A stretch of 64,000 bases of DNA, from positions 1,508,140 to 1,572,139 of the forward strand of contig NZ_JAGGMN010000001.1 in NCBI RefSeq assembly GCF_017875325.1, given 5' to 3'. Below are positions 29,822 to 33,643 of this stretch, piece by piece. Within the stretch, counting starts at the first letter, position 1. Every line of letters starts with the position of its first letter. The notes beneath the pieces are model-generated. The model was not told the origin of the DNA. It saw only the letters and a list, made by a program, of their open reading frames with translations, and made no database searches. A program made the translations under genes and the position numbers. This stretch comes from Methanofollis sp. W23 (GTDB lineage: Archaea; Halobacteriota; Methanomicrobia; Methanomicrobiales; Methanofollaceae).

Positions 29822-30259
29822 TTACCTGCCTGGAGCGGTCTGCTGTTGTTGACGGTAAGCAGCGTTCAGGCGGGTTGCGATCTCGTTCATCTCCTTCTTC
29901 AGATTTTCGATCGTCTCGGCGACCTTCTTCTCTGAGGCTTCAAGTTCGCGGGCCCGCCCTTCGAGGAACGAGATTGCATCCTCGTTGCTGCGTTCGACAG
30001 TTACGTCCGCCCCAATCGCGACCAGTACCTTTTCTGGGTCAGGGACTGCTGCCCTGACGCTCACGCCGCCACCGATCGGAAGGAGGACGGTACCATCCTG
30101 GGCCTCGCCAAGGGACCGGAGCGTCTCGATCGCCGCAAAGGTCTCGACTCTCTGCTGGTCCATCATCTCCAGCTGCCTGGCCATGACCTCCGCCTGCTGT
30201 CCATACTCGTTAAGATAATACTGGAGCGACTGCAGCTCCCTCGGGTCGGCATGTTCCAT
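29822..30259 (-). CDS. pfdA: Prefoldin alpha subunit
   Basis: 145 residues from ATG 30259, preceded by AGGTGACTAAGTCC. Two coiled-coil arms (about 5-50 and 95-135) flank beta hairpins (VLLPIGGGVSVRAAVPDPEK), the prefoldin alpha layout. The hexamer delivers unfolded proteins to chaperonins. The C-terminal QQQQTAPGR tail is flexible. Position between LX and ftsY is conserved in euryarchaea. Confidence 0.93.
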   Translation of the reverse strand: MEHADPRELQSLQYYLNEYGQQAEVMARQLEMMDQQRVETFAAIETLRSLGEAQDGTVLLPIGGGVSVRAAVPDPEKVLVAIGADVTVERSNEDAISFLEGRARELEASEKKVAETIENLKKEMNEIATRLNAAYRQQQQTAPGR

Positions 30260-30263
30260 GGAC

Positions 30264-30452
30264 TTAGTCACCTAGTACGGTAACGCCATCGATTGAGATA
30301 TACCTTCTCTTCAGGTTGTGTTTACTACCGATATCAGCGTAAACATGTTCCTTTGCAACCTTCTCATTCGGGGCCTCGACGACCTTCGTGAAGGACTGCC
30401 TGATCTCACCCATCTGACAGGCGCCTTTAACTTCAAACTTCTGCATCTCCAT
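30264..30452 (-). CDS. rplX: 50S ribosomal protein L18Ae (LX)
   Basis: 62 residues: MEMQKFEVKGACQMGEIRQS, then FTKVVEAPNEKVAKEHVYAD and a C-terminal HNLKRRYISIDGV. This is the short archaeal LX form. ATG 30452 is chosen since GGAGTGA lies 5 nt upstream; a GTG at 30461 would overlap the eif6 stop (GTGA). Confidence 0.9.
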   Translation of the reverse strand: MEMQKFEVKGACQMGEIRQSFTKVVEAPNEKVAKEHVYADIGSKHNLKRRYISIDGVTVLGD

Positions 30453-30457
30453 TCTGC

Positions 30458-31123
30458 TCACTCCAGAAAGCCAAACACTTCCTCAATCCGCCCAAGTTCA
30501 AAACCTGTGGTCTCGAACCCGGCGACATATCCTTTGCTGTTCGCAAGAACCCCGGTCCCAACAAGGCCGCCGCCCATATTTACCGTGCCTGTCCCGATCT
30601 GGAGATCCCCCACACACTCTGCGAGGTCGGCGATCTCAGCATCAGTACTCCTGGCATGGACAAGGACACCCTTGTTGGTGGCGACCGCAGCCATTCCCAC
30701 GGTCTTTATACCGGCGAAGGTCAGCCTGCGCACCGGCACCCCGAGGAACGTCCCGATCTCCTCTGCCTCCTCTATCGGCATGTCTGGGTGTACTGCAGCG
30801 AACGAATCGTTGGCAAGGATCACGTTCCCGGCCGCGTTCATCGAGGTCCCGAGGGTCATCACCTCCCCATGTTCCCTGAGTACCGCGAGTTCCTCATCAG
30901 TCGCAAGCCCGCTCACCACCATCCCGTTCGAGTTGCCGGCAAGGAGTGAACCGATGATCGACGAGCCCTGGACCGTCGTCCTGACGACCTCGACATCGAG
31001 CGCCTCGGCTACACTCTCTGTAAACTCCTCGGTCGCCATGGGGGGAACGACTGCGAACTCCTCAAAGGCCCGCGCAAAGACACCGATATGCGGATCGGCG
31101 GCAAAGTCGATCGTTCTTTCCAT
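30458..31123 (-). CDS. eif6: Translation initiation factor 6
   Basis: 221-residue pentein-fold protein that binds the large subunit and blocks premature joining. It shows internal repeats, each with an N..G.... pattern: [44 protein letters not shown] and [16 protein letters not shown]. The stop overlaps a possible GTG of rplX; 1 bp separates it from rpl31e. Confidence 0.95.
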
Positions 31124-31124
31124 T

Positions 31125-31388
31125 TCACTCCTCAGCGAGTTCGGCCTGGACCTGTCCGTCCTCGAACTTCATGGCACGGACCCGGATCGACGCTGGCGGC
31201 TTTCCGGCGCCGCGCTCCCAGACCTTCTCGTTGATGCTGCTGTCCAGTTTGATCTCTTCGCTCTTCATGTGCCGGACAAGATATGCCCTGATATCTTTAA
31301 TCGCAACATTGCAACGCCTCCGCCTGGGGGCGCGCTTGGCGTCGCGGAGAGGAACAATATAGATCTGCTCTTTGAGTGCCTCTACCAT
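31125..31388 (-). CDS. rpl31e: 50S ribosomal protein L31e
   Basis: 87 residues. [19 protein letters not shown] and the region [16 protein letters not shown], followed by [20 protein letters not shown], are diagnostic. It lies 4 bp after rpl39e in the same operon. Confidence 0.96.
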
Positions 31389-31392
31389 CTCT

Positions 31393-31545
31393 CTACACCT
31401 TCAGCGTGCTTCTTCTCCACATGCGCCTCTTAGGGTGGGATACCACGTGGCGCTTCGTCCGAATCATCACCCATGCAGGAACACGGCGGTTCTGCATGCC
31501 TGCTTTTGCCAGTCGGACCTTACGGCCCTTGGTAATTTTGCTCAT
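31393..31545 (-). CDS. rpl39e: 50S ribosomal protein L39e
   Basis: 50 residues, the normal L39e length: [20 protein letters not shown], then [20 protein letters not shown]. It lines the exit tunnel. The short start at 31545 is chosen because GGTGATAGCT precedes it and the upstream in-frame extension has no similarity. Confidence 0.96.
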
Positions 31546-31556
31546 AGCTATCACCG

Positions 31557-32150
31557 TCATTCGATGCCGGTTGCACCTGTGACCAGGGACTGCTGATGGT
31601 GTGCTGGAAAGAGTTCCGCACACCGGTGGCCCATCTGTCCGACCGCAGCCCTGATCTCATATTCATAATCACCGTTTTCGATGGTGCCGGTCTCACCATA
31701 GGCGACACAGAGGTGTTGCCTGGCAAGCCGCTGCACCTCGGCTTTCCCGAAGCCAAGGAGTGGACGGACATAGGAACAGCCATACCGGTCTGCCATGCGC
31801 ATCACATCTCCCCGGGTCATCGCCGGCACACGGTCGTTCAACCGGGTGCCGTCGGCAACCACCTCGTACTCCTCTGCAAGAAGACGGACCGCCCGACGGT
31901 GGACCGCCGTGATCGCATCGGCCGGATAGCCGTCCGCGATCACTTTTTTTGCGGCCGCCGCCAGACATTCGAGGCCCAGGGCGTGTTTTCGCCATGGGAA
32001 CCCGAGTGTCCTGGCCGCACCCTCGACAGACGCCACCTCCCGGTCGGGGTCGAAGACAAAGGTGTTGAGTTCGACCTCGTAGTCGCGGGAGAGGAGCATC
32101 GCAGCAAGGGCGCTGTCTTTCCCTCCACTGAAGAGCAGACCGACTTTCAT
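31557..32150 (-). CDS. PP-loop ATP pyrophosphatase family protein
   Basis: 197 residues. The N-terminal PP-loop [17 protein letters not shown] (about 4-20) marks an N-type ATP pyrophosphatase that adenylates a substrate. Further segments are [17 protein letters not shown] and [18 protein letters not shown]. It resembles the small archaeal family found next to L39e/PDCD5 genes, whose substrate (probably an RNA or a translation component) is unknown. It lacks the zinc motifs of tRNA thiolases. Confidence 0.85.
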
Positions 32151-32480
32151 CTACTTCCGCGTGATCCGAAACTCTTTTTTCTTGGGGGCGACCTGCACCA
32201 GCAGCGCCTTCAGTTGCTCGTCAGAGATCTTCTGCCTGATCCGGCCGCTCTGCGCGAGCATCACCAGCTGCTGTTGGATCGCCTGTGCAAACTCGGGTTT
32301 GGCGAGTTTGATCGTATTCAGCCGTTCACGCGCCTCTGGTTCAAGGATCTGCATGAGCGCCAACTGCATCTCTGATTCCGCGCGTTTCTGACGTTCCAGA
32401 TCCTCTTGCTGGCTCATGGCCTGCTGTTGGAGCTGCTCCATTCTCTTGCGCCTGATCTCAGAGAGTTCGTCGTCACTCAT
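32151..32480 (-). CDS. PDCD5-family DNA-binding protein
   Basis: 109 residues: a charged N-terminal helix (ELSEIRRKRMEQLQQQAMSQ) and a three-helix core with EPEARERLNTIKLAKPEFA, VMLAQSGRIRQKISDEQLK and a basic tail KKKEFRITRK. It is the archaeal homologue of PDCD5/TFAR19. The role is unclear (nucleic-acid binding is reported for the family). It lies between S19e and the PP-loop gene, the conserved archaeal position. Confidence 0.93.
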   Translation of the reverse strand: MSDDELSEIRRKRMEQLQQQAMSQQEDLERQKRAESEMQLALMQILEPEARERLNTIKLAKPEFAQAIQQQLVMLAQSGRIRQKISDEQLKALLVQVAPKKKEFRITRK

Positions 32481-32497
32481 ATCAGTATCCCCTGTCC

Positions 32498-32947
32498 TTA
32501 GTAGTGCGCAAGGTCAGGCACGGCCTCAGTCGCCGCGGCCTTCTGGCTGTTCGCAATCGTGTCCAGGAAGGCGCGGCCCTTTGCAGAGACCTGCCTGCCG
32601 TCGTGCACCTTCTCGACAAGACCTTCTGCCTCGAGTTGCTGGAGCGCCTTTCTCAGGACCGAGCCGCTTCCCTTCCTGAACTGGTTCGGGTGGGAACCGC
32701 GGTTCTTGGGCCCGCCATATGCACTCCTCAGTCTCTCCACGCCGACCGGACCGTCGATGTAGACGCGACGGAGGACAGCCGCCGTCCTGATATACCACCA
32801 GTCGGGGTCTTCAGGAGGCATTTCCTTGTGGATCCCGGTCTTGGCAAAAGCCGCCCATTCTGGAGGCTCAATGGCAGGGAGCTCCTTTAACTCACGGGCC
32901 ACCTGCGGGATGAGCATCTCAGCCGGGATGTCATATACAGTTGTCAT
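32498..32947 (-). CDS. rps19e: 30S ribosomal protein S19e
   Basis: 149 residues. YDIPAEMLIPQVARELKELP, WWYIRTAAVLRRVYIDGPVG and GGPKNRGSHPNQFRKGSGSV are family signatures of this winged-helix ribosomal protein. The ATG is preceded by GAGGTTAACC. An own TATA box and palindrome lie upstream, so this gene likely begins the main transcript of the superoperon. Confidence 0.96.
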   Translation of the reverse strand: MTTVYDIPAEMLIPQVARELKELPAIEPPEWAAFAKTGIHKEMPPEDPDWWYIRTAAVLRRVYIDGPVGVERLRSAYGGPKNRGSHPNQFRKGSGSVLRKALQQLEAEGLVEKVHDGRQVSAKGRAFLDTIANSQKAAATEAVPDLAHY

Positions 32948-32961
32948 TGGTTAACCTCACT

Positions 32962-33017
32962 GTAACGATCGATGTTACCAGTCTTTATCTATTTGCCATG
33001 GGTGTTTTTATATATTT
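32962..33017 (-). promoter_or_regulatory. Promoter region of the S19e-led operon with a palindrome
   Basis: AAATATATAAAAA (minus strand, 33005-33017) is a strong TATA box placing a start near 32990. Just downstream, GTAACgatcgatGTTAC (32962-32978) is an inverted repeat with a palindromic centre. It could be an operator, or a hairpin in the leader of this ribosomal operon. Confidence 0.55.
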
Positions 33018-33084
33018 CGAGCGGCAAAACCCGGGTTTTTTCAGGCAATCTGAGCCCATATGCCCGGAGAAGAGGGGGATCGGA

Positions 33085-33333
33085 TCAGACCCGCCTGCTT
33101 CCTTTCCGCTTTTCGGCAAGGACCATGGTCCGGCCCCGCACGCCGACGAGTGTGGCGCCGGCGCGGCGGGCAATCTCGTCGGCATCCACGTCGGTGCTCC
33201 GGAGCCATTTGATCTTGACGACTTTGCGCTGCTTGAGCTGGAGTCGGATCTCCTCGATGAGGGTATCCGAACATCCCTGTTTGCCGATCCATATGGTCGG
33301 CTTCAGTTCCTGGAAGAGTTCATTTTTTTCGAT
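33085..33333 (-). CDS. YhbY/CRM-domain RNA-binding protein, apparent AUC start
   Basis: An 82-codon frame encodes a complete YhbY-like CRM domain: KPTIWIGKQGCSDTLIEEIR, RKVVKIKWLR, EIARRAGATLVGVRGRTMVL (with the GxxG-type loop region), ending EKRKGSRRV. YhbY proteins bind pre-50S/23S RNA. No ATG, GTG or TTG exists between the upstream in-frame stop and the domain. A near-perfect ribosome site GGTGGTGA (33340-33347) sits 6 nt before ATC-GAA-AAA-AAT-GAA, exactly where family members begin with Met-Glu-Lys, so AUC is the proposed start. It overlaps the rnp4 end by 14 bp. Alternatively, slippage on the A7 run at 33323-33329 could join it to rnp4. Confidence 0.8.
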   Translation of the reverse strand: MEKNELFQELKPTIWIGKQGCSDTLIEEIRLQLKQRKVVKIKWLRSTDVDADEIARRAGATLVGVRGRTMVLAEKRKGSRRV

Positions 33334-33643
33334 GTTCTTTCACCACCGGATAGCGTTTCTGGTGACCGCAGACACGGCAGGTGACGAGCACCTTTCCGTG
33401 CTGCACCCGGACGCGGGCATTGGACCCAGGGACGAGGTACGCCGAGCACCGCCTGCAGAAGCGTGTCCCATACTCGCGGGGGATCCTGACCCGCTGGCGC
33501 ATGGCGATCCGTCGAGCAAGAGCAACACACCGGTTGCTCACCTCGGGATCTACAGGGTAGAACTCGGCCGCTCGTTCAAAGAGAAGGGCGATCCGTTCGT
33601 GTGCGATCTTCTTCGCGTTCTGGTCCTTGGGTCTCCGCCGCAT
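33320..33643 (-). CDS. rnp4: RNase P protein component 4 (Rpp21)
   Basis: 107 residues. The helical N-terminus (AKKIAHERIALLFERAAEFY) and a zinc ribbon made of CRRCSAYL (about 64) and CRVCGHQKRYP (about 89) match archaeal Rpp21/Rpr2, which works with Rpp29 on the specificity domain of RNase P RNA. It ends KEHRKK in an A-rich run that overlaps the next gene. Confidence 0.93.
   Translation of the reverse strand: MRRRPKDQNAKKIAHERIALLFERAAEFYPVDPEVSNRCVALARRIAMRQRVRIPREYGTRFCRRCSAYLVPGSNARVRVQHGKVLVTCRVCGHQKRYPVVKEHRKK

Follow-up and report, generated by a model that had tools for sequence, protein, structure and literature searches.

A yhbY gene of Methanofollis with an apparent AUC start codon, and AUC or AUA at the homologous position in other Methanomicrobiales

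The yhbY frame and its overlap with rnp4

We analyzed a stretch of 64,000 nucleotides from Methanofollis sp. W23 (called the window below). On its minus strand, positions 29822 to 33643 are occupied by a dense cluster of translation genes, which includes rnp4, yhbY, the gene of ribosomal protein S19e and the gene of a PDCD5-like DNA-binding protein. Judging from the ORF translations, the same cluster probably also encodes L39e, L31e, aIF6, an L18a-like protein and prefoldin alpha. The S19e and PDCD5-like genes are located downstream of yhbY, and a TATA-like stretch before the S19e gene suggests that rnp4 and yhbY form a separate transcript. The features considered in this study are as follows.

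33320 to 33643, minus strand: rnp4, RNase P subunit (Rpr2/Rpp21; PF04032, 58.4 bits), its product ending in ...PVVKEHRKK before the stop
33340 to 33347, minus strand: SD-like GGTGGTGA, assigned from the 16S 3' end and the duplex energy; part of the Rnp4 'PVVK' is encoded here, and the TGA that bounds the yhbY frame on its upstream side lies within it
33331 to 33333, minus strand: proposed AUC start codon of yhbY (ATC in all 12 genus genomes; sister genera have AUG, AUA or AUC as the homologous codon)
33320 to 33322, minus strand: TGA stop of rnp4, within yhbY and 11 nt downstream of the AUC; a candidate for the termination event in translational coupling
33085 to 33333, minus strand: yhbY, CRM-domain RNA-binding protein, 82 amino acids with the start, stop codon included in the coordinates (PF01985, 54.1 bits; dN/dS about 0.16 in the genus)
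32498 to 32947, minus strand: downstream gene of ribosomal protein S19e (PF01090, 185.9 bits; ATG start in 12 of 12 genus members)

The yhbY frame extends from stop to stop over 33085-33339 (84 codons), and its translation reads KNIEKNELFQELKPTIWIGKQGCSD...RRV between the two stops (also given as KNIEKNELFQELKPTIWIGKQGCSDTLIEEI...RRV). The product, a protein of ribosome assembly, matched PF01985 (CRM/YhbY) over profile positions 12-82 of 84 with a score well above the curated cut-off of 27 bits. The Gly-11, Lys-12 and Gly-14 residues of the GKxG loop, an RNA-binding loop of the GxxG-like type, were invariant in 15 diverse members of the order. The score against TIGR00253, the bacterial YhbY equivalog, was 43.7 bits and thus below the cut-off of 78.5 bits. 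We therefore regard the product as an archaeal CRM protein and do not class it as the bacterial equivalog. Within the genus, the mean dN/dS over 72 codons from codon 5 onward was 0.155, which indicates purifying selection and rules out that yhbY is a pseudogene. The dS value was near 1; that is, synonymous sites have changed freely.

The original prediction held that this frame contains no ATG, GTG or TTG start, and our reading bears this out: the first such codon is codon 51 of 84, which lies inside the CRM domain. The motif that had been noticed 6 nt before ATC is GGTGGTGA. As for the extent of the gene, which had been given as 33085-33347, the end at 33085 stands; the other end took in the SD, and the gene occupies 33085-33333. 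A scan of the window for coding potential yielded 68 coding-like ORFs, and of these only yhbY clearly lacked a standard start near the onset of coding. Three further ORFs were flagged, and these had a standard start some codons further on, touched the edge of the window, or scored weakly.

The in-frame TGA upstream of yhbY lies at 33340-33342 within GGTGGTGA, and only AAG and AAC stand between it and the ATC at 33333-33331, so that the frame opens 6 nt before ATC and the spacer from GGTGGTGA to ATC is also 6 nt. The 3' end of the 16S rRNA of this genome is GGATCACCTCCT. The best duplex with the anti-SD near the yhbY start is predicted for GGTGGTGA (-11.0 kcal/mol), which differs from GGAGGTGA by one mismatch, and the start is located 5 nt past the predicted end of this duplex. 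In the predicted fold of the isolated mRNA, the region of the SD and the start is partly paired. If yhbY begins at this ATC, rnp4 and yhbY share 14 nt in different frames, an overlap of the kind expected of a termination-reinitiation pair.

Conservation of the codon in the genus and in the order

We compared the start region among 12 genomes of the genus, that is, the window genome and 11 congeneric relatives obtained by searching 100 genomes; several of these are complete single-contig assemblies. YhbY of all 11 relatives aligns from the residue encoded by ATC. The alignment in close relatives, which had been proposed as a check, gave ATC at this position in 12 of 12 genomes, in each case with GGTGGTGA and the 6-nt spacer. 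Near the 5' end of yhbY, ATC is the only codon within one base of ATG that all 12 members possess, which supports the earlier reading of AUC as the apparent start. Nine of the 12 have no standard codon before the conserved core, and three have one that lacks an SD.

The overlapping end of rnp4 was also informative. In 12 of 12 genomes, the His codon of rnp4 that overlaps ATC is CAT, a codon that accounts for 33% of the His codons in those genes of the window that we examined. It is followed in 11 of 12 genomes by the Arg codon CGA, which accounts for 6% of the Arg codons in the same genes. A yhbY start translated as AUC-GAA would impose just this codon usage on rnp4. Codon 2 of yhbY encodes Glu or Asp in 11 of the 12 members.

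The overlap with rnp4 and the recurrence of the pattern across an order, rather than in one odd gene, go beyond the original prediction. We surveyed 118 yhbY loci of Methanomicrobiales, counting a locus as having no standard start when none was present from the upstream stop (or from 45 codons back) to the conserved core. In 71 loci, ATG, GTG or TTG was accompanied by an SD. Another 22 loci had no standard codon, and every one of them had an SD-like motif followed 3-11 nt later by ATC or ATA. All six families are represented by these 22 loci, which belong to nine genera (coded g1, g6, g16, g18, g21, g23, g25, g84 and g85), and the single-lineage cases outside the genus (g1) include incomplete genomes (g23, 62%; g84, 84%). 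Sixteen loci, including the remaining three members of the genus, had a standard codon without an SD together with an AUH codon (AUU, AUC or AUA) with an SD; L065 and L154 (ATG adjoining ATC) are weak cases among them. Nine loci had a standard codon without an SD, and no locus had neither a standard codon nor AUH. Some AUH loci elsewhere in the order also carry GTG, TTG or a later ATG, without an SD, as a possible start. The background rate of AUH at SD distance was 8 of the 71 loci with an SD-led standard start. One further locus, L161 (g91), appeared start-less in the short view and was rejected, since ATG with an SD is located further upstream.

In loci whose yhbY-frame stop forms the end of GGTGA, the codon in question is the third one after this stop. 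It is ATC in g1 (12 genomes), g16 (4), g23 and g84; ATA in g6 (3), g21, g24, g25, g85 and g13 (2, then ATG); and ATG in g6 (2; L071 and L123), g12 (7, most of this genus) and g17 (1). In the aligned sequences, AUG, AUA and AUC interchange at one homologous codon, in g6 even between sister species. The expectation that homologues should have Met at the position of ATC agrees with the AUG of L071 and L123 in g6 and of most of g12. The Rnp4 residue over the conserved 'AT' varies (His, Tyr, Asn or Asp), so that the conservation of 'AT' is not explained by a requirement of Rnp4. On a quick tree of Rnp4 and YhbY there were at least eight changes between AUH and standard starts, a count that does not separate gain from loss. 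The outgroup classes have standard yhbY starts, nearly all ATG.

As controls, we examined two other genes of the same genomes. The start codon of aIF1 was ATG in 25 of 25 relatives and that of S19e was ATG in 12 of 12 genus members. Because all of these controls start with ATG, we reject a general relaxation of the start codon in these genomes. The gene of aIF1 (SUI1) also lies in the window, from 49647 onward on the plus strand, with ATG in every relative checked.

Two groups of loci have arrangements of their own. In the Methanogenium-like g18 (L032, L060, L072, L076, L093 and L155-L157), GGGAGG(G/C)GAT ATC ATC GAT precedes yhbY; that is, two consecutive AUC codons follow a strong SD. No standard start is possible in L155 of this group, because an in-frame TAG directly precedes the SD. 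In g16 (L080, L082-L087 and L090), small indels between rnp4 and yhbY change the relative frame (0, 1 or 2), and the AUC after GGTGA is kept.

Probable initiation at AUC and the alternative explanations

Given the codon with its SD, its conservation and its homology to AUG, and given that the product is under purifying selection, all of which we observed directly, it is very probable that translation of yhbY begins at AUC (AUA elsewhere) with initiator Met-tRNA, from an SD inside rnp4 and probably in translational coupling with it. The SD within the last rnp4 codons would position the 30S subunit at AUC 33333-33331. The initiator Met-tRNA (anticodon CAU) would then form pairs with the first and second bases only, both in AUC and in the AUA of the other genera, so that Met would be the first residue of YhbY. 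Ribosomes finishing rnp4, the stop of which lies 11 nt downstream of AUC, probably assist by termination-reinitiation. The weak and long-conserved start codon probably keeps the synthesis of YhbY low, and its output may be regulated, possibly via start-codon fidelity controlled by aIF1. These cells may thus tune the output of YhbY by a weak AUC or AUA start. We speculate further that the Methanomicrobiales yhbY start might act as a sensor of initiation fidelity (the state of aIF1/aIF2) or of ribosome-assembly status, in an infC-like loop linking initiation stringency to assembly of the large subunit, although we consider this rather unlikely. A search for a conserved regulatory RNA structure at the yhbY start gave only a weak consensus fold and no Rfam match; since two frames are coding in this region, the fold is not informative.

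There is nearly an even chance that the AUC/AUA start is real and has no regulatory meaning. That is, a good SD and coupling would make the third base nearly neutral, and it would drift among G, A and C. This concerns the purpose of the start and is compatible with initiation at AUC as the best explanation of where translation begins. The exchange of AUG, AUA and AUC at the same codon in sister species agrees with such drift, and the coding of rnp4 also constrains these bases. However, AUC is fixed in 12 of 12 genus members despite a dS value near 1, and purifying selection is reported to act generally on the AUG starts of bacteria and archaea (PMC5622118).

Translation might instead begin further in, at Leu codon 6 or another near-cognate codon, which we consider very unlikely. 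Codon 6 is indeed ATG in L005, TTG in L008 and L013, and CTG in four genomes, but the window genome has CTC there and two others have TTA, so that this codon is not conserved. It is also about 20 nt from the SD. Moreover, a start at codon 6 does not account for Glu or Asp at codon 2 in 11 of 12 genomes, nor for the rare CGA that rnp4 keeps and that this residue requires.

Even less credible, by a small degree, is a programmed +1 frameshift at CGA AAA AAA TGA, close to where rnp4 ends, by which a Rnp4-YhbY fusion would be made without any start codon. It is true that in the genus the yhbY frame is +1 to that of rnp4, that the two frames have 20 nt in common, and that the stop of rnp4 follows an A-rich run. 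This run, however, varies even within the genus (from AAAAAAATGA to AAAAGAATGA or AAGACGAATGA) and differs in other AUH lineages (AGGAAATAA, CGGAAGTGA, AAGAACGAGTGA), with no common slippery motif. Among the AUC loci of g16, rnp4 occurs in frame 0, 1 or 2 with respect to yhbY, and in L084-L087 of that genus the end of rnp4 coincides with the opening of the yhbY frame. In addition, relatives have a separate ATG start for yhbY, and a frameshift would leave the conserved AUH at SD distance without explanation. As background, a 2021 review knew of one case of programmed frameshifting in archaea, of the -1 type (PMC8211752).

A sequencing error or a decayed gene, for which the missing standard start alone would speak, can be practically discounted: the same codon occurs in 12 genomes, several of them complete single contigs, which excludes an ATG at 33331-33333 hidden by an error as considered in the original prediction, and the frame is intact and under the purifying selection described above.

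Comparison with known systems

In bacteria, conserved AUH starts are known from a few genes, above all infC, in which they make feedback via IF3 possible. Our search of open-access papers turned up no gene of an archaeon whose AUC or AUA start is conserved phylogenetically, and we therefore regard the novelty of such a start as provisional. Non-canonical starts of sORFs are mentioned in a Ribo-seq study of Methanosarcina mazei, but its text names neither AUC nor AUA (nor ATC or ATA). A housekeeping gene that starts with AUC or AUA across six families and nine genera would lend itself naturally to testing how strict archaeal ribosomes with aIF1/aIF2 are in their choice of the start codon. It would also mark a systematic blind spot of annotation, because callers limited to ATG, GTG and TTG would miss yhbY, or give it a wrong start, on account of its AUC/AUA codon.

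The product itself has the same domain as bacterial YhbY/CRM proteins (PF01985, TIGR00253), with conserved GKxG and RG residues, and differs from them as an archaeal form with a short N-terminus that scores below the TIGR00253 cut-off.

The overlap with rnp4 resembles the Haloferax gene pairs coupled by termination-reinitiation, in which the upstream gene ends inside the 5' end of the downstream gene (PMC10666635). Those pairs typically overlap by -4/-1 nt, whereas rnp4 and yhbY overlap by 14 nt and the start is AUC.

With bacterial infC, which encodes IF3 and starts with AUU in E. coli and AUC in Streptomyces, yhbY shares a conserved AUH start on a gene of the translation machinery that is often misannotated (PMC5472188). 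The product of infC is itself the fidelity factor, and infC autoregulates. YhbY, in contrast, is a CRM protein and no initiation factor, the host is archaeal, and aIF1 has ATG in all 25 relatives tested, so that autoregulation of the infC type does not apply. The sigR gene of Streptomyces, which starts with GUC and is repressed by IF3, is likewise an ordinary gene with a rare start codon, which in sigR sets the product level via an initiation fidelity factor (PMC5472188). The codon, the gene and the domain of life are different, and the effect in sigR is experimental, whereas that of the yhbY start is a proposed one.
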